A stretch of 26,077 bases of DNA from a virus, in IMG/VR virus record IMGVR_UViG_3300001679_000070, positions 1 through 26,077 of that record. One strand, 5' to 3'. The notes under the pieces were generated by a model, which made no database searches, had not been told where the DNA came from, and saw nothing but the letters and a program-made list of their open reading frames with translations. This document shows positions 1 to 20,719 of the stretch, piece by piece (position 1 is the first letter of the stretch; each line of letters begins with the position of its first letter). The translations under genes and the position numbers were made by a program.

Positions 1-3000
1 TTCCTTGTAAGTAATTCTTTCGCCGTCTATTATTACTATACCGAATATGTTTAATTCTAAATTCGGAACACCTAGTAAGCTAGCATCTTTAACGAAAATA
101 GTATCATCATTTAAAGCAATATCTTGTACTAACGCAGTAGTGTTACTATCTTTGTTAACTTTATACATTGCGGCATTACCTTTCATGTCTTTAAACAGTC
201 TAAATGACAATGTATCTGGTACGACATTATCTGTTATGCTTGTTGCAACAATAACATCGTTTAATGTGATAATATCACCAGTAAGGAATAATCCTGTTCC
301 GCTAACAATATAATCAGTACCTGCTTGCAATAGTCGGCCGTTTTTAGTAACCCACATTCTGCCATTATCAAGTATTGTTCTGTTTAAGTCGAATAAGTTA
401 GCAGAACCAGCAGTGAAACTAATACCATCAAATAATTCAGTATCAAACCCAACACTATCAAAAAACTCTATTACAGGTGTAGTAGTAAGCGTTGGGCCGA
501 CAAATACATTTGTTAATAAATCTAATTGCGACACATCTTTCCAAGTAGTTACTGCAAGTGTATCTGATGCTGTAAGAACTATGTGCTCTAATGTAAGTAT
601 ATTTCCGTTTACTGTGTAGTCTGATGCTGTATTAATATAAACATCTACATTTGTTCCGCTTGCTGGTGGGTCAGTTAGGAATGTTACTTCCTTTAATGCT
701 GGCACAGTTGAATCAATTACATAATCTGTACTTAATGTTTGTCGCACTTCGTTAATATAAACTACTACTTCGTTATCTGCTACAGTAGTATGATTTACCT
801 TGCCATCTGTTGGTAACGTAAAATCATACTCAGCACCGTCACCGTTGTACCTGACTGCTTCTGGCGGACGTAAACGAGATCCATTAAGCTCAACAATCAT
901 ATTCTCTCTAGTTTTATCAGTACTGTATGGACTTATGTTAATTTCAGTACTTGATGTATCAGCTGTTACTAAAGGTGTTCCTTTAATTATTAAATTTGTA
1001 TCAGTAGTAACAACTACCGAACTTGCATCTATAACTTCGCCGTCTGTTGTAACTACAGTATCTATAGATACATGATCTGCTGTTATAGTAGTTGTATCAA
1101 CACCAAATACATCAGATACGTATGTTGTTGGGTAACTGTGACTATGCTGTGGTGTTTCAAATCCAAACACAGTAATCGCAATAAAGTCAAGTGCAGTATA
1201 AGTCTCTATGAATGTAATGTTTGTCTTGCTCTCACCACTTGTTGATAACGTGTCTACTGTTAGTTTTGAATCTGCTGTTACTAATAAAGAATCTACTGTA
1301 ATTGCACCGCTTGGTGTAGATGTAAATCCACTAGATAATTCTATGCCGTTTACGTGTACAACTATATTAAATATCTCTGCAGAACCAACTGGTATCTCTA
1401 AGTGATTTACAATTTCTCCACCGTTAAATGTGTTACGATATAATTGGTTTCCTCCACCTATTTCATAAGCAAAGATTTGTATCTGATCTGAGGTTACTGC
1501 TCCTGAGATTATAGTTACTGTAGCATTTATCCAATTAACTGTATAATTTGTTCCTTCGACTAATAGCAATCCGTTTGATATGTTTGCTACACGAAGAGCG
1601 ATAGGATGTTCAACTAAATCTAAGAAACTAATTGTAGTTCCGATACTTATGTATTCTTCTATTACTGATTGTACTTCAAATGCATGACCGTTGCCATTGT
1701 AATCAAATCCAGGTCTAGTAGTAACTACTAAATCCAATGTGTCAAACATACTACCTGGTACTAATTCTTCTGGAGCATGACTGCTATAGGTGTCAACAAA
1801 CCCACTGCCATCAACGTTAATATCTTCAGGATTAATACCTAAGTACACGTCATTGTATAAACTGTTATAGTCTACATTTAGTTCTTTAACAACAGAATCT
1901 GTTGTTAAAGAACTAAAATCTATAGTTACTAAGCCAGAATCTACTGTAACAGTCTCTAAGTAATCACAATCATCTACTTCAACACTAGGGTATGTAACAC
2001 CATTAATTAATAGCGCAAGATCTATTCCTGGTAGATCTAAAGTAGGTTGGTAAAAGCCTCTAATTCTATCAACACCACTTAACGTAGTAATATCAACTAA
2101 ATTATAATCAATAAGATCAAACGATGTTCCAAATGCAGTAAATGACTCGCAGTCAGCAGTTATTGTGTTTGTATTATCTGTAATTATTCCTAACTTAAGG
2201 GCAGTACCTGTTCCAACCCCTGCACTTGTCATTCTAAAATGCAATCCGACTGTATTAGACGATGCGCCGAGTAGAGTAAAATTTGTTGTGCCGATTGATA
2301 TAATTTCATACACAAATCCTAATTCAAAATTGCTTGCTGTTTGCAGTTGATCAGTAGTTCTACTATTAGCATCATGATCAACTGTAAGAGTTGTAGAATC
2401 TACATTTCTCTCATCTTTCGCTGTATATACTTTATTAATAGTTTGTCTTAACAATTGCGAAGAATTATGGAATACGTTATCACCAAGTGTGCTCCAATTA
2501 ATTACACTGCTTTCGTATTCATATCTGTCATACTTAATTCTTGTTAAGAATGATCTTACTAAGTTGTTTGTAAGGATAGAAGTAATAATAGCACCCGAAC
2601 CGCCACCTCCTGTTACTGTTATTGTTGGTGTCGTTACGTAGCCAACTCCCGGAGTATCAACTGTAATATCAATAACTTTACCTGATGTGCTAATCCTAGC
2701 AGTCATTGTTGCTTGCGTTGTTGCACCACCGCCTGTTACTGTTATTGTTGGTGCTAATGTATATCCGGTACCTGCGTTAACTATCGTAGTATCACTAACC
2801 TTTAAAAATCTATTATTAAACCAATTATTCCATGGATCCGTTGTCCATATATTAGGATCTGAGACTCTTAATCCCACACCGTCTTCATCAAAGTTACTCT
2901 GGTCTGTATTTAAAATAGCACCATCATAATCTAGTATCGGACTTATGAACTTACTAAACGTTGTGTCGAACTGTGACGGAAGATCAAAATCTGTTGTGTT

Positions 3001-6000
3001 AGTGTTTACTGTATCAAACCTATCGTATCTTAATAAGAATTCCTTAATCTTAACATGGAATGGTTTAGATTCAGTAAGATAATCTAACAAAAAGTCTTGA
3101 TTATCTCGGCTAAATGTAGGAAATTGTACTAGGTCACGAACCTTATGTTCTACATCAATAAGACTAGTTCTATATAGCCATTCTACATTCCCTTGTTCTG
3201 CTAGAATAAACTTAAAGATACTAATTAACAAAATATTTCTGTTTATTAGTAAATCATCTATTAATAAGTCTTGATTGATTGCATTTAATACATTTCTTAA
3301 TTCAGTGCCGCCTGTACCAACATCAGCAGTAACTACAATTGTATCTGTTGTGAATGTCGCAGTATCAATTGTTATATTATCTTGCGATGATGTTCCGTCA
3401 CTCAACGAGGATTTAAACTCAATAGTGCCATCTTCTAACCCAACTCGAATCCATGCGTTACTATAGAATTGATAAATTTCAAACTTACCTACACTATTAG
3501 ATCTAACTTTAACGTAATTGCCTTCTTCTGCTTGCACTGATATTAGACTTGAGAAATCATCAACGATAGTAATTTGCGGTGCATTCTCTACTTCGTCGTT
3601 TTTGTACCAGTTAATATAGTCCCACGCCCTTGATGTGTCAAATTGCTGTACACGTACTAGCAGTAATACAGATCCTGCAATTACTTTATATATACTCCAG
3701 CCACCAGTATTATCTGTGTCGACATTAACTAAGTAGGTATATCCTACCGGAACAAGAGATAAATCTTGAAATCCTAGTTCTTCTAAATCTGCCACCTGCA
3801 GGTCTATTTCGCCGTTGGGTAGTAATGTACTAACTATCGTCGGTTTTAGCTCTTCAGCTGTAAGTAATGTAAAGTTTTTACTAGTTGAAATAATATGCTG
3901 TTTAAGTAAAGTATTAACCTGCGTTAAGTATTCCTTTAATGCGTTAAAACGATTATCAAACATTGACTGTCTAGGTCTGTACTTAATACCTAATCTTTCA
4001 GCGGCACCAAGAGTTGGATCCGGAACAGCAAGACCTATAGTGTTACCACCGACAAAACTATCTAATAGCTTTCTATATTCTTGTGTCTCTAAAAAGTCAT
4101 TAGCACTATTTTCTTTAATTAAGTTATACTCGCTGAATATTGTGTTTTCACTTTGGGTGTTGTTATAACTTACGTGGAGTATTGCATTGCTGTTAGTTAA
4201 GTACTTTTGTACGTTAAACAGGGCAATTGTGTTTGCTTTTAAGAATCCAACAAATGGGATCCCGGATGCTTTTGGATCTGTAATATACTGTTGTATTGCA
4301 TTAGTACTTAAAGTCTTCTCCGAATCCTTATCTATTATTGCTAGTCCTGTAACCCAGAAGTAATAATCCTGTACTATTGTTCTACTGTTATCAATATTTG
4401 AAACAACTGTAAATGACTCCGGATCAACAACTGTACCTGGTCCTGTATATTGTGCAGGGTGTATTGAACTTTTTATCCATTGTCTAATATCAATAGAACT
4501 GCCTGGAAACAATGTACCCCAATTTCTACTAGCATACGTTACTTCTCTTTGACGATAATCTAAATATCTAGCATTAGTTGTATCCCACCAAATTTGTCCA
4601 AGACTGTCTTCACTCCACGTCACACCAGTAATGTTATCTAGTCCTTGGTTGTATGATGCTGGGTCAAGAGCACCGATATAATCTATATTCTCTTGTGCTA
4701 ATCCTAATATCTTTCCATTAATTGGATCAATATAATCTAAGAATTCTTTAGTTTGGTTTGTAAATTTATTGTACAATACCGTTCTGTTAAATAACGTAAC
4801 GTCTACTACATCTTCTTCTAGGCGCGTTTGAAACCAAACACCTGTATGGTCAACAGTATCAATTGAATCTGCTGTTATTGTTGTAGAATCTGCAGATTTA
4901 CTTGTATCAACAGTTGTAAATCTTCCTGAGTCAGCAGTAACAGTTGTGCTATCATCTAAGTCAGCAGTTATTCTACTAAAACCTAGTATTCCTAAACATG
5001 CATCTGCATCACTCGATCCACAGAAATCAGCTAACGGTTTATCTACAACATTAAACTTTTGGTACACTGCATGTTTGCCGTTTACATTATCGATCCACGT
5101 TTTAGAACCAGCTGGTAATTGTCTAAAGAATTCTAAGCTTAAATCTGCAAAAGTTCTAACTCTCATAGAGTCTAGTTTATAAACTACTGCACTTAATGTA
5201 TTATCGGCTGTAAACAAATCAATATCAGCTGTGTCTGTTGTGTTAGCCGCAACGTTATTAAAAGTATCTGTTAGTGTTCCGTCTATCGCTATAGTTAGAT
5301 CATCTATAACATTCAAGACTGCATGTCCGCCGTTTATTTCAGTAACTGCGTTTTGTATTACTATTTTATCGCCAAATATAAACTCGTGCGGTTCGTAGAA
5401 TGTTGCTTGTATAACGCCGTTAACTAACGCAAGTGTTTTAAATACAAGTCTATGATCTGTTCTATAAACATTCCAATCATACGTATTGTCTTTTGCAACC
5501 CAAACTAACGAACCTTCTTGTACTTGATCTACTATACCAGCAAGGTCGCTTAGTTCAAATACAGATATATCTATATCATCTAAGTGAACATGACCTGCTA
5601 TTGGTAGATTAGTATCAGTTAAATTATCTAGCTGTACAGGAAATACATTAGAATCGATGTGCGGTTCGCTTTGTTTAAAGATTTCATTTACTTTAATTAA
5701 TTGATAGTCTGCTACTTTTGTACTATTGTTACTAATTAATTCAACTATAGTCGGATTATCTTGTAAGACTACATCTTCTAATTCTAAATCAATAAACGTC
5801 TTGTTGCTACTGCCGCCGTACATCGCCTGTTGTACTGCCCAGTTCTCAAATATGTCGTATTCTGTTGTTGTCTTATCAAACTGAATGTTACGGAATGCAT
5901 CTGTACTATTTCTTGTGCCTTTAATATCGATAAATCCGCTATAAAAATTAACTTGACTGATATCGTCTAATGCGCTAAAGTTAAATCTAGGGCGGAATCC

Positions 6001-9000
6001 TATCAATCCTAATGCTAATAGATCTACATCTGTTTCTAAGTTAGCAGATTTATTATTATAATAATCTGATATTTGTGCCGCTTTGCTTGATAGATTAGGT
6101 AGTAAACCTTTAGAAATATCATCATAGTTAACTCTACGCCAATTAGCAAAATCAAAGTTTTCAGATGGTATTATTTTTACAGTAGCACTCCAAAACACGT
6201 TTTTGAATTTAACTATATTACCAATTGTGTACTCTCTATTAGGTATCCATTCTTTAACATTATCTTGGTTTAATATAAATCCTTGTGCATCGAGTTGTCC
6301 GTTCCAATCAAACGTTGTAAATCCGACTAACTTAATTCGTTGTTGTCTTAACCCAGTAACCGGTTGGAACAGTAAGTCATTAAAAATACTAACATTATCT
6401 AAGACCAACAAGTGTTCATAACTTGTTGTTCTAATTCTCATATAATCTATAGACTTATTATTAATAGTCCTAAGTTTAAAGTTATTGTCTAGTCTAGTAA
6501 TTACATAGTCTGATGGTATTAATGGACGACCATTTTGGTCTAACGGTTGATCAATAGCACTTAATCCAGTAATATCGTCAACTACTGCTAAATCTTTTTC
6601 AAACTCTAATGTAGTTGACGCAGGATTAAGATCAATAACACTACCTACATCCCATCCTTGGTTTACCCATTGTGTAAACTCTTGTGTCATTCTACCCCAA
6701 TTTAAATCTTCAGCAGTTGTTTCACCTGATGCTAGTAAACGCTGTTCACTTGTTTGGAATATTAATCCTTGTGTCTCTAAAAATGCACCGTAACTCACTA
6801 AAAAATCAATTACAAGACCTGGAGTAGTAAACTCAAACCCGTATGGTACTAAAGTAACATTATCTGAGAAGTCTTTAGGTAGTCTAATAGCTTGCCCTGC
6901 TACCACTATCTCTGTGAAATTATTATTAGATAAGCTCTCGAGTATTTGGAAGAACTGTTGTGTCTGGCTGTTACCGAATACTGAGTAGCCATCTTCTGTT
7001 CGTTGTACGATAACTGATGAATATTGTAACTCGCTAATCGCTTGATTTTTATGTAACAGTAGTTGAAAACTCTGATCTGGTAATAGCAAATTAGAATTTA
7101 ATGTATCTGGACTGCTTCTATCTGTGAATATCTTCAAATATTGTTTGTCAGAAAATGCTCCCATTCTATAACACAACCTAACATCTAACCTTCTTAGTTC
7201 AGTTGTTAATACTGTTCCATCACTAAATCCGCTGTTTATATTGTACTCAATTATCCAGTTAATGTAGCTGTGCTTCAGAACTGTGTTACTTTTTATTTCT
7301 ACAGTTCTTGTATCTAAACGATGACGACCGTTTAATAAGAATTGACTTAGCTCGTTATTAAACGCATATTTGTCCCTATCAATACCCAATGCAAAGAATT
7401 GCGCTGGTTTTGTTAATGCAAATAAACGCTGTAAGGCAAATGGATACGAACTACTTCTACGCCATGCTGATTCTACAGGAGCGACGTCACCAATAACCCA
7501 ACTCTTTCTAAAGTCTTGTTGTGAATAATTTTGTACTAATGCTACAAACGGATTTAACAAGTTGCCTTCACTGTCAGCTGGTATAATACTTGATAATCCT
7601 GGTCGAGCATAACATGTCTTTGTGCTTTCGTTTCCTGGTTCTTTAATTCTACCTGCTTCTAGGTCACCCCATAGAACTAAGTTACCACTAGTATATGGTG
7701 CAGGACCATATTCACTTTCCCACCATATTGGCTTTTCAGTAAGTCCTAGCATTTCCCAAGGAGTAATATGCGGAGTATCAGTATCGTAATGGTTTATATA
7801 GATGCCTCTCCAATGACCTTTAAGAGCAGTGCCGTCTAACTTATTACTTGCTGTACTATAATTCCAAGTGAATTCATTATCAATGCGGAAGTTTTGTGTT
7901 TTATAATCTAATCTATTTTGTCCTACCCAGTTTAAAAGACTGACAGATAACATCTCTGTTATCTCTCTGTCGCTGTATTCTGTAGTCCTAAATTTACCAG
8001 GAATAACATCAGCTTCAATTATAGGAACCGACGTGTCAACTTTAATGTTGTTATAAATTCTAGATTCGAACTCAAGTAATACATCGTCACGGAAGTCACC
8101 AAATGCAATTAATATACTGCCGTCGTGTCCTTGTATTACTTGCTGTGGTATAGTATACGAGTTGTCTACGTAAGTCTTAGGTGTGTACTTTGGATATAGT
8201 CCTACTTTAGTAGGAGTAGCAGGACAAAACGAAACCACTGCAAAATCATACTCACGTATACTAAGGCTATCGCCTATAACAAGTGGGGTTAGTATTTGCA
8301 CAGATGCACTATCGCTAGTAACAATATAATCAATACCTCTTAACAATATAACATTATTAAGGTATACTGACATAGCACCCGATGTAGCACTAGTAAAGTC
8401 GTGTATCGATGCTGTATTAAATGTATCTGTAGTAATTGATGTTACTTCATAAACTGTATCTGTGACAGCGTTAGCACAAGGTAACATGTCTGTTGCATAA
8501 AATGGACTAGCTGGGCTTTTACCAGTATTAATTGCCGCTATTGCTTGGTCAAGAATAACATCAGCTGTTAACCCGTAGGTGTCAACGCGACTTACGTAGG
8601 ACAATATTCTTTGTTTGTATTTTTCGTAACTTCTAGAATTAAATTCTAATGCATCAAAGAAGTTAAATGCTGTGCTATCAAGAAATTTAGCCGCTGGTGC
8701 TAGTGGTGCACTATTTTGTATAATTGATTCACCATACGCGTCTATTTCGCCTAAGTCCCTAGAATTATTTGCACCATTTATATCACCTTCTAAACTTATT
8801 AGATTCTGTGCTATACTACTGTAATGATTTCTGATTGTTCCTAATGTTAGCTGATTGTTAGTCTCATTGAATATGTTATTTTCTAAATTCTTTGGTACTT
8901 TGTAGTAACCTATCGAACTTTGTTGATCGCTGATTATAAGAACCTGTAAGGTTGCACCTACATCTAGTGTATCATTAAATGTAATAACTGTGCTAGTATC

Positions 9001-11586
9001 AGTAACTGTAGCTGTATATTCGCTAGGGTTAATAAACTTATTAGTTTGGTATACTTTTATTGCAGGTACGTTTAATTCTACTTTTGGTTGTACATCTAAC
9101 ACTAAACTTACACCATCAAACGTAAAGTTAAACACTTGTGGGGGTATATTAGTTTCAACGAAGTTAGTCCATCCTGTTTCTTTTACGAATGTAGTTCTTG
9201 ATGTGTATTTTCTAATAAAACCATCGCTTACGTTGTTTGTCTGTGCTGGGTTACTATGTGCAAATGTGTCTTTGTATAAATTGTTATCAAATACAATATC
9301 ACCTAAGTTATCAATATTAAGGAACTGCAACGGGAACCCAAGCACTTTATCATTTGCACCTGTGCCAACTCCGTAACTAAACAGTTTTGTGCCACTAAAT
9401 GATGTTAATGGATATATTGTAGTATTTGAAAAACTTATTCCGTTTGTATCATATGCATCAAATAAAGGTGGTTGATTAACTGCTGTTTTCTGTTGTGCAT
9501 CTATCCAAGTAGTACCATCAAAGTAAAATACCTTACCCACTAACGTTACGCCATTTAGACATAATACTGTATGGTCTACTTCGGTGATATTATCAACTGT
9601 TTCAACTAGATTAATTGTATCGGTTCCGTCATTATCAGGATCAATAAACTGTACTTCATAGACTTTGTTTCTTACAGTTATATCTATATCATTAGCAAAT
9701 ACAACTCTAGATCCTTCTACTAAAGTATATCCATCTGCTACAAAACTAGTAGCGCCTGCTACTGGAAGAAGTGCACCTGTTGGTACTGTTGCAGTGTTAG
9801 ATCCAAACGCGTCAGTTTCACTAAAGTCAATAACATTGATCGGTGTCTTACCTTTAGTACCAAAGTTAAACAGTCGTAAGTTCTTTTCGAACTCGATGAT
9901 CGGTCTGGATGCTCTAAGGCCAGTATCAATCACTGCAATTGTATTATTAAGTTCTGCCGTTTGGTTAATAACGTCTATGTGGAACCAACGATTACTTCTA
10001 GTCCACCCGTTTAAATCTTTACTTGCTCTATTAATAGTAATAAAGTCTAAGTCTGTAGGTGAGTTCGAATCTTGGTCAAAGTTCGTTGTATCAAACGAAC
10101 TAAAGTCGAATGGTTCTAACTCGCTGTTTATATAATTTTCTGGTGTAACTAAATCTGTTACTTCAATAAGACTGATGCCTACACCGACATCTTCTACATA
10201 ATACTCTCGATTCTCAAAACTAGCTGGGTTAGTAGTACCTCTGAATTTAACTTTAAGTCCATTGGTAAACTTTACACCATTGGGGCTAGTATATGTTTTC
10301 TTACCAAGTATATCGTTAATGTCTAATACTGTACTACTTGTAGTGTCGACTAATTTTATAACACCGAATCTATTTTCATCTGTGCTGTCTTGATAGTACA
10401 AGATATCTTGTGCCGCAGTTAATGCAGGTACTTTCTCAAAGACACCTAATGCATTTTTATAAAATGATATACTATTATATACTGCTCCGTATCCGATTGT
10501 AAATTTCTCTAACTCTGCTACAGGCTTTAATAGGATTAAACTAATAACAGGATTTAACGGATCGCCTATAAATGTTATTCGGTAAACGCTATACCTATCA
10601 GCTTGAAGATCTATAAACGTTGTTTCTTCAAACGATTCTGCTTCAAATGGAGCATCTTCGTGTAAGTTTAAGTATTGCCAACCTAAGTCTGCCGAGTCTC
10701 CTAGAGTAGGATCAAGAAAAACAACAGTCTTTCCCTCTATGTCAATTACACCATCAATGCCACCTAATGTATTGGCAAACTGTGCGTTTACCTCATCAAA
10801 CCGTTGAAAAGTTGCTAAATCAACAGGACTAATGTCATTTAAACCATAAAAGAATTGCTGGCTAGACGTACCTGGAACATTAAATGTAATTGTGCCTACA
10901 TCTTCAGTGTTATTAGAAACACCTAGAATATCTCTACTACTAATATTCGGTGCATGATTTAATGTTCCGTCGGCGCCCGGTTCTGTTTGTATACTAAAGT
11001 TATGTCCTAACTGATTTACAGTAAATGTATATTCACCACCACGTGCTAGTGTGATTACAGGATTTTCACCTGATATACCACTAACATTATAAGTCCTGTT
11101 TGGTATATTCCTAGTAATATCAAATTCGTTTACTAAAAATGTATCTGCTGAACCAACATCTACACTATCAGGCCCTGCAGGCAACCAGTAGTACTGGCTA
11201 TGGTTTGTAAACTTATCGAAGTCGATAAGCGGACTCCAACTGTAAATCTTCTCAGAAAATAATCTATCATGACGTACTACATTAGCACCTTTGGTTGCTA
11301 ATGCATCAATAATCTCTAGATATGTAATTGCATCTTCTACGTTATTGTCATTGTCTGTAAACACAACACCCGGCTCAAGCTGGTAATTCGCACGTAGGTT
11401 GTTAGGTTCCAAAACATACGCATCATCAGCTTCAATGCCGGGACCAAATGTCCTGCCAACAAATCCTTGCGTTTGTTTTAGCTTAGGCTGTTGTACTAGT
11501 TGGTCTAAAGTAGCACTCAGAAACTCTTTATTAGTGTCTGTTTTAAATACTTCGGGTAAAAAATCTACTGATCTTATTCTAGCCAT
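1..11586 (-). CDS. Giant virion structural protein downstream of gp6, probable baseplate/fibre component (3' end outside window)
   Basis: One uninterrupted minus-strand frame runs from an ATG at 11586 to the window edge, giving 3862 codons with no stop seen. It starts 3 bases after the gp6 stop. The N-terminus (MARIRSVDFLPEVF, then a SQYYWLPAGPDSVDV stretch near residues 128-142) resembles large structural proteins that I recall from marine T4-like phages. Visible modules are: a His-containing beta segment (YTFTVNQLGHNFSIQT) near residues 165-248; several V-x-x-NG-x-x-L-x-x-G-x-DY modules (near 8240-8380, 1456-1605, 640-780 and 250-357); a paired PTITVTGGG repeat; a GTTNFTLLGA...GTGTA motif near 2200-2312; and many short TITADS-like repeats below position 5000. 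No transmembrane segment or enzyme motif was recognised. In T4 the gene after gp6 is gp7 (1032 aa, peripheral wedge), so a wedge-periphery or fibre role is inferred from position. The ORF and structural nature are well supported; the exact role is not. Confidence 0.8.
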   Translation of the reverse strand, partial: MARIRSVDFLPEVFKTDTNKEFLSATLDQLVQQPKLKQTQGFVGRTFGPGIEADDAYVLEPNNLRANYQLEPGVVFTDNDNNVEDAITYLEIIDALATKGANVVRHDRLFSEKIYSWSPLIDFDKFTNHSQYYWLPAGPDSVDVGSADTFLVNEFDITRNIPNRTYNVSGISGENPVITLARGGEYTFTVNQLGHNFSIQTEPGADGTLNHAPNISSRDILGVSNNTEDVGTITFNVPGTSSQQFFYGLNDISPVDLATFQRFDEVNAQFANTLGGIDGVIDIEGKTVVFLDPTLGDSADLGWQYLNLHEDAPFEAESFEETTFIDLQADRYSVYRITFIGDPLNPVISLILLKPVAELEKFTIGYGAVYNSISFYKNALGVFEKVPALTAAQDILYYQDSTDENRFGVIKLVDTTSSTVLDINDILGKKTYTSPNGVKFTNGLKVKFRGTTNPASFENREYYVEDVGVGISLIEVTDLVTPENYINSELEPFDFSSFDTTNFDQDSNSPTDLDFITINRASKDLNGWTRSNRWFHIDVINQTAELNNTIAVIDTGLRASRPIIEFEKNLRLFNFGTKGKTPINVIDFSETDAFGSNTATVPTGALLPVAGATSFVADGYTLVEGSRVVFANDIDITVRNKVYEVQFIDPDNDGTDTINLVETVDNITEVDHTVLCLNGVTLVGKVFYFDGTTWIDAQQKTAVNQPPLFDAYDTNGISFSNTTIYPLTSFSGTKLFSYGVGTGANDKVLGFPLQFLNIDNLGDIVFDNNLYKDTFAHSNPAQTNNVSDGFIRKYTSRTTFVKETGWTNFVETNIPPQVFNFTFDGVSLVLDVQPKVELNVPAIKVYQTNKFINPSEYTATVTDTSTVITFNDTLDVGATLQVLIISDQQSSIGYYKVPKNLENNIFNETNNQLTLGTIRNHYSSIAQNLISLEGDINGANNSRDLGEIDAYGESIIQNSAPLAPAAKFLDSTAFNFFDALEFNSRSYEKYKQRILSYVSRVDTYGLTADVILDQAIAAINTGKSPASPFYATDMLPCANAVTDTVYEVTSITTDTFNTASIHDFTSATSGAMSVYLNNVILLRGIDYIVTSDSASVQILTPLVIGDSLSIREYDFAVVSFCPATPTKVGLYPKYTPKTYVDNSYTIPQQVIQGHDGSILIAFGDFRDDVLLEFESRIYNNIKVDTSVPIIEADVIPGKFRTTEYSDREITEMLSVSLLNWVGQNRLDYKTQNFRIDNEFTWNYSTASNKLDGTALKGHWRGIYINHYDTDTPHITPWEMLGLTEKPIWWESEYGPAPYTSGNLVLWGDLEAGRIKEPGNESTKTCYARPGLSSIIPADSEGNLLNPFVALVQNYSQQDFRKSWVIGDVAPVESAWRRSSSYPFALQRLFALTKPAQFFALGIDRDKYAFNNELSQFLLNGRHRLDTRTVEIKSNTVLKHSYINWIIEYNINSGFSDGTVLTTELRRLDVRLCYRMGAFSDKQYLKIFTDRSSPDTLNSNLLLPDQSFQLLLHKNQAISELQYSSVIVQRTEDGYSVFGNSQTQQFFQILESLSNNNFTEIVVAGQAIRLPKDFSDNVTLVPYGFEFTTPGLVIDFLVSYGAFLETQGLIFQTSEQRLLASGETTAEDLNWGRMTQEFTQWVNQGWDVGSVIDLNPASTTLEFEKDLAVVDDITGLSAIDQPLDQNGRPLIPSDYVITRLDNNFKLRTINNKSIDYMRIRTTSYEHLLVLDNVSIFNDLLFQPVTGLRQQRIKLVGFTTFDWNGQLDAQGFILNQDNVKEWIPNREYTIGNIVKFKNVFWSATVKIIPSENFDFANWRRVNYDDISKGLLPNLSSKAAQISDYYNNKSANLETDVDLLALGLIGFRPRFNFSALDDISQVNFYSGFIDIKGTRNSTDAFRNIQFDKTTTEYDIFENWAVQQAMYGGSSNKTFIDLELEDVVLQDNPTIVELISNNSTKVADYQLIKVNEIFKQSEPHIDSNVFPVQLDNLTDTNLPIAGHVHLDDIDISVFELSDLAGIVDQVQEGSLVWVAKDNTYDWNVYRTDHRLVFKTLALVNGVIQATFYEPHEFIFGDKIVIQNAVTEINGGHAVLNVIDDLTIAIDGTLTDTFNNVAANTTDTADIDLFTADNTLSAVVYKLDSMRVRTFADLSLEFFRQLPAGSKTWIDNVNGKHAVYQKFNVVDKPLADFCGSSDADACLGILGFSRITADLDDSTTVTADSGRFTTVDTSKSADSTTITADSIDTVDHTGVWFQTRLEEDVVDVTLFNRTVLYNKFTNQTKEFLDYIDPINGKILGLAQENIDYIGALDPASYNQGLDNITGVTWSEDSLGQIWWDTTNARYLDYRQREVTYASRNWGTLFPGSSIDIRQWIKSSIHPAQYTGPGTVVDPESFTVVSNIDNSRTIVQDYYFWVTGLAIIDKDSEKTLSTNAIQQYITDPKASGIPFVGFLKANTIALFNVQKYLTNSNAILHVSYNNTQSENTIFSEYNLIKENSANDFLETQEYRKLLDSFVGGNTIGLAVPDPTLGAAERLGIKYRPRQSMFDNRFNALKEYLTQVNTLLKQHIISTSKNFTLLTAEELKPTIVSTLLPNGEIDLQVADLEELGFQDLSLVPVGYTYLVNVDTDNTGGWSIYKVIAGSVLLLVRVQQFDTSRAWDYINWYKNDEVENAPQITIVDDFSSLISVQAEEGNYVKVRSNSVGKFEIYQFYSNAWIRVGLEDGTIEFKSSLSDGTSSQDNITIDTATFTTDTIVVTADVGTGGTELRNVLNAINQDLLIDDLLINRNILLISIFKFILAEQGNVEWLYRTSLIDVEHKVRDLVQFPTFSRDNQDFLLDYLTESKPFHVKIKEFLLRYDRFDTVNTNTTDFDLPSQFDTTFSKFISPILDYDGAILNTDQSNFDEDGVGLRVSDPNIWTTDPWNNWFNNRFLKVSDTTIVNAGTGYTLAPTITVTGGGATTQATMTARISTSGKVIDITVDTPGVGYVTTPTITVTGGGGSGAIITSILTNNLVRSFLTRIKYDRYEYESSVINWSTLGDNVFHNSSQLLRQTINKVYTAKDERNVDSTTLTVDHDANSRTTDQLQTASNFELGFVYEIISIGTTNFTLLGASSNTVGLHFRMTSAGVGTGTALKLGIITDNTNTITADCESFTAFGTSFDLIDYNLVDITTLSGVDRIRGFYQPTLDLPGIDLALLINGVTYPSVEVDDCDYLETVTVDSGLVTIDFSSLTTDSVVKELNVDYNSLYNDVYLGINPEDINVDGSGFVDTYSSHAPEELVPGSMFDTLDLVVTTRPGFDYNGNGHAFEVQSVIEEYISIGTTISFLDLVEHPIALRVANISNGLLLVEGTNYTVNWINATVTIISGAVTSDQIQIFAYEIGGGNQLYRNTFNGGEIVNHLEIPVGSAEIFNIVVHVNGIELSSGFTSTPSGAITVDSLLVTADSKLTVDTLSTSGESKTNITFIETYTALDFIAITVFGFETPQHSHSYPTTYVSDVFGVDTTTITADHVSIDTVVTTDGEVIDASSVVVTTDTNLIIKGTPLVTADTSSTEINISPYSTDKTRENMIVELNGSRLRPPEAVRYNGDGAEYDFTLPTDGKVNHTTVADNEVVVYINEVRQTLSTDYVIDSTVPALKEVTFLTDPPASGTNVDVYINTASDYTVNGNILTLEHIVLTASDTLAVTTWKDVSQLDLLTNVFVGPTLTTTPVIEFFDSVGFDTELFDGISFTAGSANLFDLNRTILDNGRMWVTKNGRLLQAGTDYIVSGTGLFLTGDIITLNDVIVATSITDNVVPDTLSFRLFKDMKGNAAMYKVNKDSNTTALVQDIALNDDTIFVKDASLLGVPNLELNIFGIVIIDGERITYKE
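2585..2790 (-). repeat. Paired PTITVTGGG glycine-rich repeat inside the giant gene
   Basis: Two copies of a beta-type motif G-x-GY-x-x-x-PTITVTGGG are encoded 41 residues apart (about residues 2945-2993 of the giant protein). At DNA level a 22-base segment is identical at 2609-2630 and 2732-2753, a spacing of 123 bases, which preserves frame. Related GY...PT(I/V)T(V/I)xGGG repeats are common in large phage tail proteins, where they are probably short beta-hairpin units. Confidence 0.75.
4845..4980 (-). repeat. Cluster of DSTT(I/V)TADS micro-repeats in the giant gene
   Basis: The minus strand encodes RITAD, DSTTVTADS and DSTTITADS within about 45 residues. The same short motif recurs singly nearer the C-terminal side: VTAD near 3325, TITAD near 2152, VTAD near 1272, TITAD near 1077 and VTAD near 960. 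On the plus strand the shared core is approximately TCWGCWGTWA. The copies have diverged but keep frame. Function unknown; they lie between larger beta-type modules, which suggests linkers. Confidence 0.6.
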
Positions 11587-11589
11587 ATC

Positions 11590-14500
11590 TTAAGAAATTC
11601 CGTTTAATTCGCTTTCGGTTAATGAGTCGATAACTTTAACATTATCAACTGTTGCGGCACTTACAAATATCTCAGTTGGTGCTGATCTAACTTCGTACAA
11701 GTTGCCAAATTGTTTAGCACGGTTAACAGGAATAAGAACTACTGATCCGATAATATCACCTAACCTATCGTGCAAAAATGCAGACAACTCAGAGAAATAA
11801 AATGTATCGCCAAAATCCCAATTATTGATATTAAAGTACTCGTTAGTAACATCTATTACATTACTCTTAATTTCGCTATCGCTTGCTAATGAGTTGTGTT
11901 GCCTAACGATCGTAATATCTGCACGCAACTCTGCACTTGCTTTAGCGCCAAATAACGGTTTGAATACAGCACTGTTTAGTATAAGGCTATCACTTAGCAT
12001 CTTAAAATCATCTAATGATTGATATGCGGTCGTTAACTCTGATATTGTAGGTATTGCAGGTTCTGCAACTGTGTTTGTAGTGTCTTGTATATAATTCAAA
12101 TAAGCTGTGTGATACGCATTTGTAACTATAAATGTATCTATAATATTTGTTGTTCCTGGATTAATCCTTTTAGTTTCGGCACTATTATGTTTGTAGTGGA
12201 ATTGTAGATCTTGTCTTCCTTTTTGTACAGTAAAGTCAGGTCTTACAACTAATCTTCCTGATACTGATTCTTGAAATATTCCGTTAGTATCTTGCGGTAG
12301 ATAAAATATCTTCCCCTCAGGGAACGAACTAAGATCTAACCCAGGATCATTTCTGCGATCAAAATCAATGTTAATTACGTTGCTAGCTAACGGTAAATCT
12401 CTCTCTAGTCCGTCTGCATCGATTAATGTTTGGAAAAAGACTAAGTCTGTATCTAAAACGATATCAGTAAAGAAATCTGGATTATCTGCAACTGCATCAT
12501 TATCGCTATCAGGGTAACTAACTTCAACTACGAAGTCATTAACGAATCCGTCAGCTTCAATTGGTTGGCCGATTATATCCATCTTAACATCTAAACTTAA
12601 CGGAGCATTACTTCCTGGTTGTGTGTTAGTTTTTAATACGTTAATAAAATCATTATGACTTTGGCCAGTTCTCGGATCATATATACTGCGACTGTGATGA
12701 TGAATATTGTTTCCGCTAAAGAAAAAACGTGTTTCAATAACGCTAGAGAAGAAATACTTCAATACGTGTGTTGAAGCTGTATATATTCTATCTTTAGCAA
12801 TAAACTTAATAATACAACTAGCATCAATACCTGTACCGCTTGTGTCTTGTGCATGATCAAGACTAAAGCCAGTGCCGCCGCTATGATTGGCATCTAAATT
12901 ATCACTATTGATAATATACCAAGTACCTGCATCGTTATCATATCCTAATCCGAAGTTAGCAAACGATTCTATGTTTGCTAACATTGTTTGCTCTAGGTCT
13001 AATGGCAAATCAGTATTAAATACCGGAATAATCTCTTTTGGAACTGCATTAGTAGGAATAAAATTAGTTAGTGTAATCGGACCAGTACCACCAGTGTTAT
13101 TACCTATACCAAAGTTAGTACCATCTAACATTACGTTGCTTACGCCAGACCATAGTACAGTGTTGTCTTTCGGTAATAAGCTGCCTTCTCTTTGCTTTAG
13201 TCTATTATTCTGATCAAAGTAAAAAGGTCCATTAGCATTAGCAGTAGGTGGAATAAATTTAATTAAACTACTTTGCACAATAAATTTCCTATTATCTGAA
13301 GCATAGTTACCAACTACTAATGGCAATCCAGATGAATCTTTAAAAAACCCAGTCGTTTCATTTGTTGCGGTTGTGCTTTGACTCCATTCTATATCAATAG
13401 GTATTAAATCCTTTCTATCGAACTGATCATAGTAAAGTTGTATAGTACTTCTCTCGCTTAGGCTTGGTTCAATTTGACTTCTTATAACTGTTTCGATATC
13501 GTTTCTATCTACAAAACTAAATGAAAAGTGTGTAGTTGTCTTATCTTTAAAAACTAACCCGTCACTATTAAAAGTATTAATACTAGAATACTTTCCCGTA
13601 GGGTCAACTAAATCTAAATAACGACTAGTGCCTACATTTGTTCTAACTACCGCCTTGCTTTTGATAATACTATTAAATGCTGTATATGGGAAGTTATTAT
13701 AATCTTCGCCATTGACCATTCTGTTTTGTGTATAAAATCTAGCAGGTGCATTGCGTTTAATGTCATCTAAATCTTCTTTAGCACTCGCAGTACTAACATT
13801 TTGTGCTAGACTAACTGTAAATGTTGCAGTTTCGATTCTGCCGTTTCTGCTTGTGTAAGGCACAGCTAAATTGATTGTTGCTATGTCCGATGGATTTATA
13901 ACATACGTTAACCCGTTACTACTTCTAACAAAATTACGGAATGATCCTGTTGGGATATCACCAAATACACTATCGCCAAAGTTCAACGTTAGTTGATCAT
14001 TAGCTCTATTAGTTACACTGAAGAACTTACGATCTGACGATACATTTTGTGTTGTAATAGGTGCGTAGATATTTTCTACTTCTGACCATTCATTTAGTAT
14101 AGCGCCAGTATTAGAGTCTAGCTCGTATAACCAAATATCATCGTTGTTAATACCGTCTACGTTGATGTCTACGCTTCTGTTTGCAATCCTATCACTTAAA
14201 ACAAAGTCTTTATTTGTTAGTGTTCCTTGCGTGAAGTAGAAAAAGAATCCTGTGTTTTGACTAGCAAAACCTAAGTTATCATTTTTATATAATATATTAA
14301 ACGGACCATTTACCTTTGGCGAAGGTTCATATATCTTAGTATTATTAATTGATGTTGCACTAACTGCTTCAAAGTTCATAGCAGTGCCATTTACTGTACT
14401 ACTAAATGGTATTACTGGTAATAGGTTCGGTACTAGCTTAACTGTATATTCTTCGTTAGTAACACCTAGTATCTCTGCTGTTCTACCTGGCTTGCCAACT

Positions 14501-15006
14501 TGTTGGCTGTCTACTAATATGCTGTTAAAAATTGTGTTGAATTGATCTTGCCAATCAACGTTAGTAGAATCGTTAAACCTAACAGTTACATTACTAAGGT
14601 TATTACCGTTATAGTCTGTAATATTTTCAGTAGTGTTAACTGATGTAACTTTTAAAAATCCTCTACCTGCTTCGTTACGCTTTGGTGTATAACTAACTAG
14701 TTTAGCAAGATTTACTACACTATCTCTGCGCTCTGCTGTATCAATGAAGTTCTCTCTAGTGTTAAGATCTTGTCTATATGCAATACCCTGTCCCATAAAG
14801 GCAATAACATCAAGCATTGCAATAAACTCAGAGCTCTCTACATAGTCATTAAAGTCTTCTGGATAGTGGTGTTGTAAGTAATCTACAAAACCTTTACGTA
14901 ACGTTTCAAAGTTATAACTCTGAAAGTCAGCTTGATTATAAGTTTTATATAAGGATCTCCAATCTTCAATTCCAAAAAGGTTTGTTTGTCGTGAAGTTGT
15001 TGCCAT
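11590..15006 (-). CDS. 6: Baseplate wedge subunit gp6, enlarged
   Basis: This is the T4 gp6-type wedge protein, the scaffold that forms the ring around the baseplate hub. The N-terminal 120 residues carry the family pattern (FETLRKGFVDYLQHHYPEDFNDYVESS is spread over residues 33-59; then AYRQDLNTRENF, residues 76-87, and VSYTPKRNEAGRG, residues 104-116). A central FYTQNRMVNGEDYNNFPYT segment is at residues 424-442, and a gp6-like C-terminal end (SAPTEIFVSAATVDNV) closes the protein. At 1138 aa it is far longer than T4 gp6 (660 aa); the extra length lies mainly between about residues 480 and 1000. It follows gp25 after a 53-base gap that holds a CATAAATA late-promoter-like box. No clear Shine-Dalgarno precedes the ATG at 15006. 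A second ATG five bases upstream is out of frame. Confidence 0.93.
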   Translation of the reverse strand: MATTSRQTNLFGIEDWRSLYKTYNQADFQSYNFETLRKGFVDYLQHHYPEDFNDYVESSEFIAMLDVIAFMGQGIAYRQDLNTRENFIDTAERRDSVVNLAKLVSYTPKRNEAGRGFLKVTSVNTTENITDYNGNNLSNVTVRFNDSTNVDWQDQFNTIFNSILVDSQQVGKPGRTAEILGVTNEEYTVKLVPNLLPVIPFSSTVNGTAMNFEAVSATSINNTKIYEPSPKVNGPFNILYKNDNLGFASQNTGFFFYFTQGTLTNKDFVLSDRIANRSVDINVDGINNDDIWLYELDSNTGAILNEWSEVENIYAPITTQNVSSDRKFFSVTNRANDQLTLNFGDSVFGDIPTGSFRNFVRSSNGLTYVINPSDIATINLAVPYTSRNGRIETATFTVSLAQNVSTASAKEDLDDIKRNAPARFYTQNRMVNGEDYNNFPYTAFNSIIKSKAVVRTNVGTSRYLDLVDPTGKYSSINTFNSDGLVFKDKTTTHFSFSFVDRNDIETVIRSQIEPSLSERSTIQLYYDQFDRKDLIPIDIEWSQSTTATNETTGFFKDSSGLPLVVGNYASDNRKFIVQSSLIKFIPPTANANGPFYFDQNNRLKQREGSLLPKDNTVLWSGVSNVMLDGTNFGIGNNTGGTGPITLTNFIPTNAVPKEIIPVFNTDLPLDLEQTMLANIESFANFGLGYDNDAGTWYIINSDNLDANHSGGTGFSLDHAQDTSGTGIDASCIIKFIAKDRIYTASTHVLKYFFSSVIETRFFFSGNNIHHHSRSIYDPRTGQSHNDFINVLKTNTQPGSNAPLSLDVKMDIIGQPIEADGFVNDFVVEVSYPDSDNDAVADNPDFFTDIVLDTDLVFFQTLIDADGLERDLPLASNVINIDFDRRNDPGLDLSSFPEGKIFYLPQDTNGIFQESVSGRLVVRPDFTVQKGRQDLQFHYKHNSAETKRINPGTTNIIDTFIVTNAYHTAYLNYIQDTTNTVAEPAIPTISELTTAYQSLDDFKMLSDSLILNSAVFKPLFGAKASAELRADITIVRQHNSLASDSEIKSNVIDVTNEYFNINNWDFGDTFYFSELSAFLHDRLGDIIGSVVLIPVNRAKQFGNLYEVRSAPTEIFVSAATVDNVKVIDSLTESELNGIS

Positions 15007-15059: not shown

Positions 15060-15437
15060 TTATGAAGCGATTCTAACTGAATTCTCTTCTTGGTTGAATA
15101 AAAGATTAAACGACTGCAAGTCAACATCGGGGAAGATCCTAACGTTCATCTCTATTAGTATGTTGTTATCTTGCGAAAACACTTCTATTTGCTCTGCTTC
15201 TATTCTTGGATCAGCATCGATTAAGTTCTGCAGTTCTGCTACTATCTTGCGTTGTATTTCAGGAACATTTGGTTCAAATACATAATTCCAAATACTAGTA
15301 CCGTAGCCAGGTCTTCCAGGTAACTCGCCAGACCGTATGCTTAACGCATTTAATAAGTCACGCTTGACTAATTCACGCCCTGTAAGTGTGAACTTTTTAG
15401 TCTGTCCTATTGTGTTGTATCCTTTGTATTCGGCCAT
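15060..15437 (-). CDS. 25: Baseplate wedge subunit gp25
   Basis: This is a 125-aa member of the GPW/gp25 family (T4 gp25 is 132 aa), a small wedge protein that helps attach the sheath to the baseplate and starts sheath polymerisation. The hallmark segment GRPGYGTSIWNYVFEP is at residues 42-57, followed by an EIQRKIVAELQNLIDADPRIE helix region typical of the family. The ATG at 15437 lies 3 bases after the gp5 stop. A strong Shine-Dalgarno (GGGAGAG on the minus strand, plus-strand 15444-15450) is built into the last codons of gp5, 6 bases from the start. An exact late promoter box lies about 45 bases further upstream. Confidence 0.95.
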   Translation of the reverse strand: MAEYKGYNTIGQTKKFTLTGRELVKRDLLNALSIRSGELPGRPGYGTSIWNYVFEPNVPEIQRKIVAELQNLIDADPRIEAEQIEVFSQDNNILIEMNVRIFPDVDLQSFNLLFNQEENSVRIAS

Positions 15438-15440
15438 GTC

Positions 15441-16859
15441 TTACTCTCCCTGTGTATAACGCGGTGGTTGTACTTTAGCATTATTTATAAGGTCTATAAT
15501 TTGCTGATTTAGCTCTTCCCGATCAATTACTGGTATTAGTCCCGGAGCAGGTTCTCCATGCAGTGCATATGGTTCATGTGTTGGTATTCTAGTAACAATA
15601 CTTTCTAACGACGGTTCTTCTTCTGCCGCCCAGCCGTCATCTGTTAACTCATTGTCAGTATACACGGTAGGTTCCATTGGTGTAATATCTGTTGTTTCTG
15701 TGCCTGCACCATCTTTGTTTAGGTCAATTCTTGTACCACCGACATCAACATTCGCAGTTGATTCTATATTAATATTCTCAGTTGACTTTATATCAATTCC
15801 TTCTTCTGTTAATACGCTTAACTTTTCAGCTGATTCAATATTAATGTCCTCGCCTGTGTACAAATTAAAATTCGCGCCAGCATGCATATTAATATCTTCG
15901 TCGGCGTGTAAGTTAATTGTACCTTGTGTTCTTATGTTTACGCTATTAGAACTGTACAGATCTATTGTCCCTGACTTACCAAACTCTAGCCAAGACTGGC
16001 CGTTAGCATGAGTAATGTAAAATGCCTCACCGTCATCTGACATTGTAATTTGGTGTCCCAGTGCTGTGCGTATTCTTAAAACTTGGTCTTTACCTTCTAA
16101 GTCACCATCGTCCATTGTGATACTATGTCCGCCTCTACGTCCTATTACTTTTACATCTGCTTGCGTAATTTCATTATTTGTATCTGCATCTAGTGTTTCT
16201 TTAATGTTATCATCATACAATCCGTTAGCATAAACAGGTCTTCCTGGCGTACTAATGCCATAGCAATTGCTAGGGCTTTCACGCTGTACAGTGGAGCCTA
16301 TAGGGCCTCTAATGTCGTCATTTGTAAGACCTTGCTGGTACATTGTAGCAACAACCGATGAATGCTGTGGCTTTTCTTCATCGTAGAATCTAGGAGTCTC
16401 TGTTATTGCAGGGTCTTTGCTATTAATCTCTGTAACGTTATTAGCTGTCGCTGGTATCATATGTATTTGACCTGGATCAGTAATACAGCCTGCGTAGTAT
16501 CCATAGTTTGGATCGCCGTTAACAAAGAAGCATAATAGCTTTGTTCCTAAGTCAGGAGAAGTAAACCACATACCATATGAATGAGAATTGCCAATCGGAG
16601 TACCAGTACCTACGTTAGTACCTGAGTGTTCTGTTTTACCGTAAAACGGTGCTAAGTAAGAAACTGTTCGCCATCCGCCTGGATCATTTCTATTTTGTTT
16701 AGCAAACGCTTCAATATACACTTGTACACGGCCGTTACGAGTAGGATCGACGTTGTTCATTACTTCGCCAACATATGGTCCTGACTCCATAGGAGAACCA
16801 CCCCTATCAAACTTATAGCCTGCTGTTCTTCCTTTACTCTTTAATATATTTTCAGCCAT
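15441..16859 (-). CDS. 5: Baseplate hub/spike protein gp5, without lysozyme domain
   Basis: This is the T4 gp5/VgrG-like central spike protein. Residues about 28-130 form the N-terminal OB-fold-like region (GPYVGEVMNNVDPTRNGRVQVY; GTKLLCFFVNGDPNYGYYAGC). Residues 296-375 are ten consecutive eight-residue repeats typical of the triple-stranded beta-helix needle. The region between them does not resemble the T4 lysozyme domain, and at 472 aa the protein is about 100 residues shorter than T4 gp5 (575 aa). The C-terminal tail after the needle contains TRIPTHEPYALHGEP (residues 423-437), a motif I associate with cyanophage-type gp5. Start and upstream stop share one base (TAATG). A trimeric spike at the tail tip is expected. 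Confidence 0.9.
   Translation of the reverse strand: MAENILKSKGRTAGYKFDRGGSPMESGPYVGEVMNNVDPTRNGRVQVYIEAFAKQNRNDPGGWRTVSYLAPFYGKTEHSGTNVGTGTPIGNSHSYGMWFTSPDLGTKLLCFFVNGDPNYGYYAGCITDPGQIHMIPATANNVTEINSKDPAITETPRFYDEEKPQHSSVVATMYQQGLTNDDIRGPIGSTVQRESPSNCYGISTPGRPVYANGLYDDNIKETLDADTNNEITQADVKVIGRRGGHSITMDDGDLEGKDQVLRIRTALGHQITMSDDGEAFYITHANGQSWLEFGKSGTIDLYSSNSVNIRTQGTINLHADEDINMHAGANFNLYTGEDINIESAEKLSVLTEEGIDIKSTENINIESTANVDVGGTRIDLNKDGAGTETTDITPMEPTVYTDNELTDDGWAAEEEPSLESIVTRIPTHEPYALHGEPAPGLIPVIDREELNQQIIDLINNAKVQPPRYTQGE
15482..15489 (-). promoter_or_regulatory. T4-type late promoter box inside gp5, upstream of gp25
   Basis: The minus strand reads TATAAATA, an exact match to the T4 late promoter consensus recognised by gp55-type sigma factors. 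It lies inside the last 20 codons of gp5 and about 45 bases upstream of the gp25 start, a plausible distance. It could boost gp25, gp6 and the giant gene independently of gp48. A chance match in AT-rich coding DNA cannot be excluded. Confidence 0.55.
15735..15974 (-). repeat. Ten-octad beta-helix repeat of gp5
   Basis: Residues 296-375 of gp5 divide into ten eight-residue units: SGTIDLYS/SNSVNIRT/QGTINLHA/DEDINMHA/GANFNLYT/GEDINIES/AEKLSVLT/EEGIDIKS/TENINIES/TANVDVGG. Hydrophobic residues recur at positions 4 and 6 of each unit. This matches the octad periodicity of the T4 gp5 C-terminal needle. Confidence 0.85.
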
Positions 16860-19361: not shown

Positions 19362-19658
19362 TTAGAATCCTAAAGTTTCGCGTAAAATACTTAACTTAGG
19401 TAAAAGGATTGTAGTACCTTCTACAAAGCTAAACAAAGGATCAGGTAATGTATTTGGGTTACGCTGTGCAAATACCCACCACAAGTCTGAATCTTCGTAC
19501 AGGTCAAATGCTAGTAAATCAGGACGTAAGTTGTACGTTGCATTAATCTGAAATCGTTGATCGTCAGATCGTTTAGGAATACTCCTGTTAACTAAGAAAT
19601 TTAAATTTGCTTTAGTTGCAGTTGTTTCAAAGTATGAACTTGTTGCTCGATATGACAT
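19362..19658 (-). CDS. 53: Baseplate wedge protein gp53-like
   Basis: This is a 98-aa gp53-type wedge protein. The diagnostic stretch is YNLRPDLLAFDLYEDSDLWW (residues 43-62), followed by VFAQRNPNTLPDPLFSFVEG and a TTILLPK end, which matches the gp53/LysM-like core. T4 gp53 is 196 aa, so only the core is kept. In T4 this protein helps join wedges around the hub. The start codon overlaps the gp48 stop by one base (TAATG), and AAGGA on the minus strand (plus-strand 19668-19672) is the likely ribosome binding site. One base separates its stop from the next gene. Confidence 0.88.
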   Translation of the reverse strand: MSYRATSSYFETTATKANLNFLVNRSIPKRSDDQRFQINATYNLRPDLLAFDLYEDSDLWWVFAQRNPNTLPDPLFSFVEGTTILLPKLSILRETLGF

Positions 19659-20719
19659 TAATGAAATCCTTTCTTAAGAAGCTTACCTGAGGCGTAATCC
19701 TTAAGACTAAACTTATTACTAACTTGATCTCGCGTTTGTATAGGTAATAGCGTTAACGCTATTTCTATTTTAGTAGGAACGTACGTTATCCCATCTCCTT
19801 GTGAAATGGGATTAGGAATAGTTGTTCCTGATACTCGTGATATATTACTACCTCTAAAGAATGATTCTGCACCTGCCGATAACCCTGATCCAAACAATCT
19901 CGAAATTCTAGAACTCCATTTGTCGTGACCGCTTGGGTTATTAGTCCTTTGTGCTTGTGTAAAATTAGTAGCTTGAGCTCCGGGATCACCAGCTTTAATA
20001 TAATCTACATCATTAGGTAACACATAGTTAAACATTGATATTACATAAGGATGCTCGTTAAATTGGTAATCACCTAGACCTGATAAAAATACCAACGGTG
20101 GCGGAGTACCTCTTTTTGCATCCTGTCCATAGAACATTTTAGTACAGCTTCGTAAAAAATGTATTGTTGCTAACATATAGTTTGCTTCGCGTGTATCTTG
20201 TGCTGTAAATGTAGAGTTTATCAACATGTTATCTATAATACTACCTTGATAAAAGTAACCTCTATGATTACTGTGTGTTAAATCATACGAATTGTAGTTT
20301 GCTTTATAACCTTGTGTCATATGCGGCAAATACGGAAATAATACACCGTCTGTTTCAGACAATGGTTGCATTATACCCGGATCCGACGAATTATAAAAGT
20401 AATCAGCATTTGGTGCTAGTCTTAAACGTACACGCCAGTCTGACTTATCAAACGATTTCCTTGTATCTTGTGCATTAGTGTTCTTCTGTATCGGCCTAGT
20501 TTCATCTTCGTTGCTATTGAGAAATGCTTGAAGAGCCTCGCCAGTAAGGGGTCCACTTCTTTCTGTACGGCTACCTACTTGGCTAGTTTCATCTTCGTTG
20601 CTATTTAGAAATGCTTGAAGAGCTTCGCCCGTAAGGGGTTCACTTCTTTCTGTATATGTGCTTACTGACTCGTCAGTAATAAAGTCGGCGTCGTCTTCCC
20701 CGAATAAGTGATTAGGCAT
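19658..20719 (-). CDS. 48: Baseplate tail tube cap gp48-like
   Basis: At 353 aa it is close to T4 gp48 (364 aa). The core from residue 95 on contains DWRVRLRLAPNADYFY, NYMLATIHFLRSCTKMFYGQ, PPPLVFLSGLGDYQFNEHPY and MFNYVLPNDVDYI, the pattern of tube initiator/cap proteins. The C-terminal YVPTKIEIALTLLPIQTRDQ fits the same fold. It caps the hub and begins tail tube assembly. T4 gp54 is related in role, so the exact equivalence is less certain than the family. The first 75 residues are unusual: acidic, with an 18-residue unit PLTGEALQAFLNSNEDET repeated almost exactly. It is the first gene of the left structural block, preceded by an exact late promoter and no obvious Shine-Dalgarno. Confidence 0.85.
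   Translation of the reverse strand: MPNHLFGEDDADFITDESVSTYTERSEPLTGEALQAFLNSNEDETSQVGSRTERSGPLTGEALQAFLNSNEDETRPIQKNTNAQDTRKSFDKSDWRVRLRLAPNADYFYNSSDPGIMQPLSETDGVLFPYLPHMTQGYKANYNSYDLTHSNHRGYFYQGSIIDNMLINSTFTAQDTREANYMLATIHFLRSCTKMFYGQDAKRGTPPPLVFLSGLGDYQFNEHPYVISMFNYVLPNDVDYIKAGDPGAQATNFTQAQRTNNPSGHDKWSSRISRLFGSGLSAGAESFFRGSNISRVSGTTIPNPISQGDGITYVPTKIEIALTLLPIQTRDQVSNKFSLKDYASGKLLKKGFH
20496..20654 (-). repeat. 87-base-period tandem duplication in the 5' part of gp48
   Basis: A 72-base segment at 20496-20567 recurs at 20583-20654 (period 87 bases, 29 codons) with 4 mismatches. Three of the four are synonymous; the fourth changes Gly to Glu (ERSGP versus ERSEP). Encoded copies are residues 52-74 and 23-45 of gp48. 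It looks like a recent in-frame duplication whose protein sequence is being maintained. Confidence 0.92.

Follow-up and report, generated by a model that had tools for sequence, protein, structure and literature searches.

A giant virion structural protein encoded directly after gp6 in a probable jumbo-phage lineage: architecture and a candidate place in the baseplate wedge

In phage T4, gp7 comes after gp6, and in P2 gpJ and gpI are followed by the fibre. Two domains of the CBA120 tailspike TSP4, XD2 and XD3, superimpose with an rmsd of 1.5 over 60 residues at 22% identity, and they and their counterparts in gp10 are binding sites for partner trimers (PMC8825819). The N-terminus of T4 gp34 joins the baseplate protein gp9 (PMC10253068). 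A family of giant proteins is already known from jumbo phages, without a function in the annotations and literature examined; the RaK2 literature searched does not mention its member ORF070. The CBB member, recognized by gene identity and position, is CBB_236, for which mass spectrometry yielded 21 unique peptides from CBB virions, next to 13 peptides for CBB gp6 (CBB_237; PMC5259590). In phAPEC6, the 381.88 kDa protein gp245 is represented by 17 virion peptides, and its entry comes directly after that of the wedge protein gp244 (PMC7247149). As 121Q gene 582 (3323 aa) agrees with gp245 in size and order, the latter appears to belong to the same family. No statement on processing of the giant was found in the literature searched.

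The DNA analyzed here (the window) is an entire record, a metagenomic virus contig of 26,077 bases that ends inside a gene of this family. The genes around it are arranged as follows:

19658..20719, minus strand: 353-aa virion structural protein, homologous to CBB_243
19362..19658, minus strand: gp53-like wedge protein, 98 aa
16859..19360, minus strand: 833-aa protein at the position of the virion protein CBB_241
15441..16859, minus strand: gp5-like hub spike, no lysozyme domain detected
15060..15437, minus strand: gp25 (P2 gpW) wedge protein
11590..15006, minus strand: gp6-like baseplate wedge protein, 1138 aa
1..11586, minus strand: giant structural protein; the contig covers residues 1-3862 of about 3956 and lacks the C-terminal end

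The minus strand is read in the order listed, and the plus strand carries a homologue of these phages' late sigma factor gp55, gp47, a radical-SAM/SPASM protein, and gp46. Much the same gene order was found in RaK2, CBB, 121Q, Cassandra, and Vibrio 2.275.O. On the 3' side of the giant, near relatives have a gene for a conserved protein (about 200 aa), followed by one that we read from its sequence as fibre-like. With the order hub spike, gp25, gp6, giant, the giant occupies the slot of T4 gp7 or P2 gpI. As gp7 follows gp6 in T4 and gpI follows gpJ in P2, this is the place of the third wedge protein.

Some neighbors deserve mention in their own right. The 833-aa protein had no PHROG match and is weakly similar to its Cassandra and Phosso counterparts. 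The spike comprises 472 aa, compared with nearly 900 codons for the gp5/lysozyme gene of RaK2, CBB, and 121Q. The radical-SAM/SPASM gene (22821-24386, plus strand) lies between the recombination-nuclease genes gp47 and gp46, which adjoin each other in RaK2 and Cassandra. The 353-aa protein contains, in its N-terminal part, a tandem duplication with a unit of about 25 residues (TERSEPLTGEALQAFLNSNEDET / TERSGPLTGEALQAFLNSNEDET).

The giant reading frame begins with an ATG 3 nt past the gp6 stop and continues for 3862 codons without a stop, still open at the window edge, as a preliminary description of this DNA had stated for all 11586 bases. Over the same stretch, the other two sense frames contain 374 and 543 stops, and since this base composition would give a stop roughly once in 15 codons, an open frame of such length by chance is excluded. 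Codon-position G+C is uniform along the whole frame. One antisense frame is poor in stops (114 vs 296 and 381), and the three longest antisense open frames (3815, 8990, and 9665) share one phase, in agreement with the constant antisense phase described earlier. In all 22 fetched relatives, isolated phages included, the gene is a single frame located immediately after gp6, and complete members range from 3331 codons (RaK2) to 4990 (L009), those cut by a contig end being left out of this range. The closest relative, L007, is 71% identical over the full length and measures 3934 codons from stop to stop. As it extends 94 residues past the window edge, a total of about 3956 residues is expected for the window giant, with about 94 C-terminal residues missing here. 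Because the frame is unbroken and homologous throughout, a hidden frameshift is very unlikely, and the relatives uphold the earlier arguments both against frameshifts and for one very long structural protein following gp6. A metagenomic contig terminating within this very gene might raise the suspicion of an assembly error or of several genes fused into one, but the chance is negligible given that 22 records, isolated phages among them, share this single frame, and we ruled it out. The giant is thus genuine, with a length of almost 4,000 aa.

A PHROGs profile search assigned the giant to PHROG 10938, 'virion structural protein' (E 2.1e-296). Among sequenced phages, its N-terminal 800 residues matched 57 records and residues 1110-2180 matched 60, nearly all from phages with large genomes, i.e., the RaK2, 121Q, CBB/GAP32, and K64-1 groups, Atu_ph07, and Phosso, joined by PA5oct/Cassandra, SCTP-2, and Vibrio phage 2.275.O. 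More distant matches came from XacN1 and two Stenotrophomonas phages, and the last 900 residues had no match among sequenced phages. One IMG/VR relative sits on a contig of 343,632 bases. Since nearly all matches fall in large-genome phages, the lineage of the window is, judged from sequence, most likely that of a jumbo phage. The giant is therefore not a singular oddity: it belongs to a known, functionally unassigned family in about 60 sequenced jumbo phages, with up to 4990 residues, and is ordinary for its group.

Alignment, profile searches, and structure prediction divided the giant into these parts, given from the N-terminus onwards:

11167..11586, minus strand: residues 1-140, N-terminal domain, conserved in the alignment in 19 of 19 PHROG 10938 members, including RaK2
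10324..11145, minus strand: residues 148-421, cupredoxin-like beta sandwich with insertions (fold match only)
8929..9144, minus strand: residues 815-886, jellyroll like XD2 of CBA120 TSP4, T4 gp10-like (fold)
8239..8469, minus strand: residues 1040-1116, second XD2-like module (fold, and profile relation to the first)
7387..8238, minus strand: residues 1117-1400, the family's most conserved block, 35-41% identical to isolated jumbo phages
6136..6279, minus strand: residues 1770-1817, CBM5/12 (chitin-binding type 3)-like module (fold and sequence)
5167..5457, minus strand: residues 2044-2140, small beta barrel (fold, Z 7-8, modest evidence)
4837..5049, minus strand: residues 2180-2250, cassette site, occupied by an FG-GAP propeller in most near relatives but not in the window or L007
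2602..2805, minus strand: residues 2928-2995, glycine-rich G-x-G-Y repeats (phrog_460, E 3e-9; family D12)
247..1575, minus strand: residues 3338-3780, C-terminal region holding as many as three further weak XD-like copies (profile)

Conservation peaks at residues 1-140 and 1117-1400. The first of these regions gave no match to gp7, gpI, gp6, or Pfam, and in the AlphaFold2 model of residues 1-1150 (mean pLDDT 60) the N-terminal 120 residues are unreliable. Residues 148-421 matched rusticyanin (Z 9.3, rmsd 3.2, 101 residues), with no copper-ligand motif seen in the segment; sequence searches with it gave nothing convincing, so that the likeness is one of fold, and it is mostly missing from isolated jumbo phages. 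Residues 815-886 superimpose on TSP4 XD2 (7rfv) with a Z-score of 7.9 and an rmsd of 1.5 over 62 residues at 26% identity, and residues 1040-1116 matched 9k09_U (Z 8.2) and 9d84_B (Z 7.7). Profile comparison relates these two modules to each other (probability 82%). Profile searches of PDB sequences with both modules and the N-terminal domain returned nothing significant, and the full-length giant had no match among PDB sequences either. As the profile search missed the module at 815-886, the XD-like assignment is made from the fold. The C-terminal XD-like copies reached profile probabilities of 29-58%.

The AlphaFold model of residues 1110-2180 is mostly of low confidence (mean pLDDT 49), and two small parts of it fit known folds, namely the CBM5/12 module around 1770-1817 and the barrel around 2044-2140. 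The barrel resembles one in phage endosialidases and in an E1 enzyme; a broader likeness of the model to the E1 enzyme was rejected, as the Foldseek rmsd was about 15 over the whole alignment and the agreement comes down to this one small barrel. The Pfam family CBM_5_12 was matched by 13 of 13 relatives (best E 8.6e-5), the window's own copy being weak (E 0.033, below Pfam's cut-off). PDB sequences matching the module include chitin deacetylases, fibre or spike proteins of phages 7-7-1 and Milano, and a long-tail-fibre proximal subunit of 1289 residues, the length of T4 gp34 (residues 40-89, E 8.9e-4). Direct comparison by hhalign related the module to T4 gp34 residues 40-88 (probability 87.5%, E 3.6e-6), and all other pairs of giant segments and tested T4 or P2 proteins stayed below 5%. 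In the giant, the module could bind chitin or another sugar, or it may be purely structural.

In the region of window residues 2180-2250, the giants of near relatives are longer by about 650-850 residues. Six of these inserts contain Pfam FG-GAP_2 repeats, which are typical of beta propellers (E-values from 2e-5 to 6e-18). These integrin-alpha-like repeats lie inside the giants of L009, L010, L011, L014, L015, and L019. The window and L007 either lost the propeller or never acquired it, and short T-A-D-S-rich peptides take its place. In Phosso, the corresponding place is taken by long glycine-rich G-Y repeats. The motif T-[ATV]-D-[STH], often in the form TTxTADS, occurs 17 times in the window giant, compared with 1.5 expected after shuffling. 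Its copies are spread over residues 1052-3541, mostly beyond 2116, and several lie at sites where other relatives have no residues. It is absent from the window's other proteins and occurs at no more than 2.0 per 1000 residues in every relative; the L007 giant has eight copies. As the codons of the copies vary, the motif looks selected as a peptide.

Similarity to gp7 itself was sought at several levels. The Gp7 Pfam domain is absent from the giant, and hhalign comparison of overlapping 600-residue segments with a gp7 alignment gave probabilities of at most 0.4%; the earlier suggestion to compare the N-terminal region with T4 gp7 thus turned up no similarity by profile. A gp7 profile that recovered T4 had no match in RaK2, CBB, Cassandra, Phosso, SCTP-2, or Vibrio 2.275.O, nor in the 343-kb contig and two other large giant-bearing contigs, and a search of jumbo-phage genomes for gp8 with a single-sequence query gave no match. 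For P2 gpI, neither the Pfam family Tail_P2_I nor hhalign matched the giant, the hhalign target being one sequence, since gpI relatives from IMG/VR were near-identical to each other and hence unusable as a profile. We therefore rejected gp7 homology at the level of sequence: because these searches related the giant to none of gp7, gpI, and gp8, 'gp7' denotes its position and not its membership. A gp10 query matched a C-terminal gp10-like segment in Cassandra_0439 (T4 residues 438-539, E 1.6e-12), which lies shortly downstream of Cassandra's giant, so gp10 has not been wholly absorbed into the giant.

Taken together, we infer, with somewhat more confidence than doubt, that the giant is a large wedge protein of the jumbo-phage baseplate, in the place of T4 gp7 or P2 gpI. 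This is suggested by the gene order in isolated jumbo phages and IMG/VR loci, the virion peptides of relatives, the missing gp7 and gp8 matches in giant-bearing genomes, and the XD2-like, CBM5/12, and FG-GAP modules; the giant's modules resemble those that other phages use for joining fibres or spikes to the baseplate. Against it stand the absence of detectable sequence similarity to gp7 or gpI (gpI as a single sequence), the low-confidence fold models (mean pLDDT 60 and 49), and the placement of family 10938 under 'head and packaging' in PHROGs. The main objection concerns stoichiometry. The XD modules of gp10 and TSP4 act as trimers, and gp7 is present as one chain per wedge, so the copy number of the giant may not fit.

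In the proposed arrangement, the N-terminal domain and/or the core at 1117-1400 would bind two gp6 copies and thereby complete the wedge, with residues 1-140 as the putative gp6-binding end. The rest of the chain would point outward and form a modular arm with docking sites for fibres or other periphery proteins, and variable beta cassettes (FG-GAP propeller, cupredoxin-like sandwich, glycine-rich repeats) would tune reach or surface contact in each lineage. A more far-reaching version, in which one giant chain replaces the whole outer wedge, i.e., gp7, gp8, and the fibre-docking parts of gp10 and gp34, and acts as a scaffold with a cassette slot for receptor-like beta domains including the integrin-type FG-GAP propeller, appears unlikely. 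The preliminary description had expected a chain of beta modules, and the jellyrolls, CBM5/12, and further beta modules bear this out; its idea that several functions may be fused in one chain is supported as far as shared gp10-like and gp34-like modules go, and this support does not extend to fusion of whole gp7, gp8, gp10, or gp34.

The main rival explanation is a tail-fibre hub: the giant would sit at the baseplate periphery or the fibre base, outside the wedge core, and another, small and unrecognized protein would serve as gp7 or gpI. Modules like those of gp10/TSP4 and gp34-type fibre parts, the fibre-like gene downstream, and the failure to find gp7 or gpI similarity would all suit such a hub, but the giant directly follows gp6 in every family phage examined, and its N-terminal domain and the core at 1117-2060 are widely conserved; we regard this alternative as possible though doubtful. 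The whisker-like structures along the tails of CBB and phAPEC6, together with the very large size of the virion proteins, bring to mind a tail-sheath decoration (the hairs or whiskers of some of these phages), which is highly improbable for a gene within the wedge operon and a family that also occurs in MIJ3/PA5oct-type phages, described with a spiky baseplate and long kinked fibres. The PHROG 10938 category would assign the giant to the head or to packaging, which is scarcely credible for a gene in an operon of baseplate genes, next to wedge proteins, whose product has modules of the fibre-docking type.

To the known family, this analysis contributes a placement as candidate wedge partner, modules of the XD-like and gp34-like types, and a propeller cassette that can be exchanged. 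Should the giant prove to be the third wedge partner, it would show that contractile baseplates can keep the plan of their conserved core while one partner becomes an arm of about 400 kDa that bears fibre-docking and exchangeable surface modules. Such a reading offers a concrete, testable assignment for a whole jumbo-phage group.

Compared with T4 gp7 and P2 gpI, the giant shares the position after gp6 or gpJ in the wedge operon, whereas a sequence relation is not detectable and its length is almost four times that of gp7; it also far exceeds gp34, as had been noted for both T4 proteins. T4 gp10 and the TSP4 XD domains correspond to it by fold at residues 815-886, which fit TSP4 XD2, with a second such module at 1040-1116, but in the giant these modules are embedded in a far larger chain and the rest of gp10 is not recognized. 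With T4 gp34 (residues 40-88), Milano gp124, and the phage 7-7-1 fibre it has the CBM5/12-like module in common, which is near the N-terminus in gp34 and internal in the giant, where no fibre shaft was recognized. The named members of PHROG 10938 (RaK2 ORF070, CBB_236, 121Q gene 582, Cassandra_0442, and Phosso gene 294) are homologous to the window giant over most of its length, at about 22-35% identity, and lie in the same slot after gp6 with 3.3-4.6 thousand residues. From these isolated phages, the window lineage differs by a C-terminal stretch of 900 residues that has no match in them, by an extra cupredoxin-like module, and by its short T-A-D-S peptide repeats.
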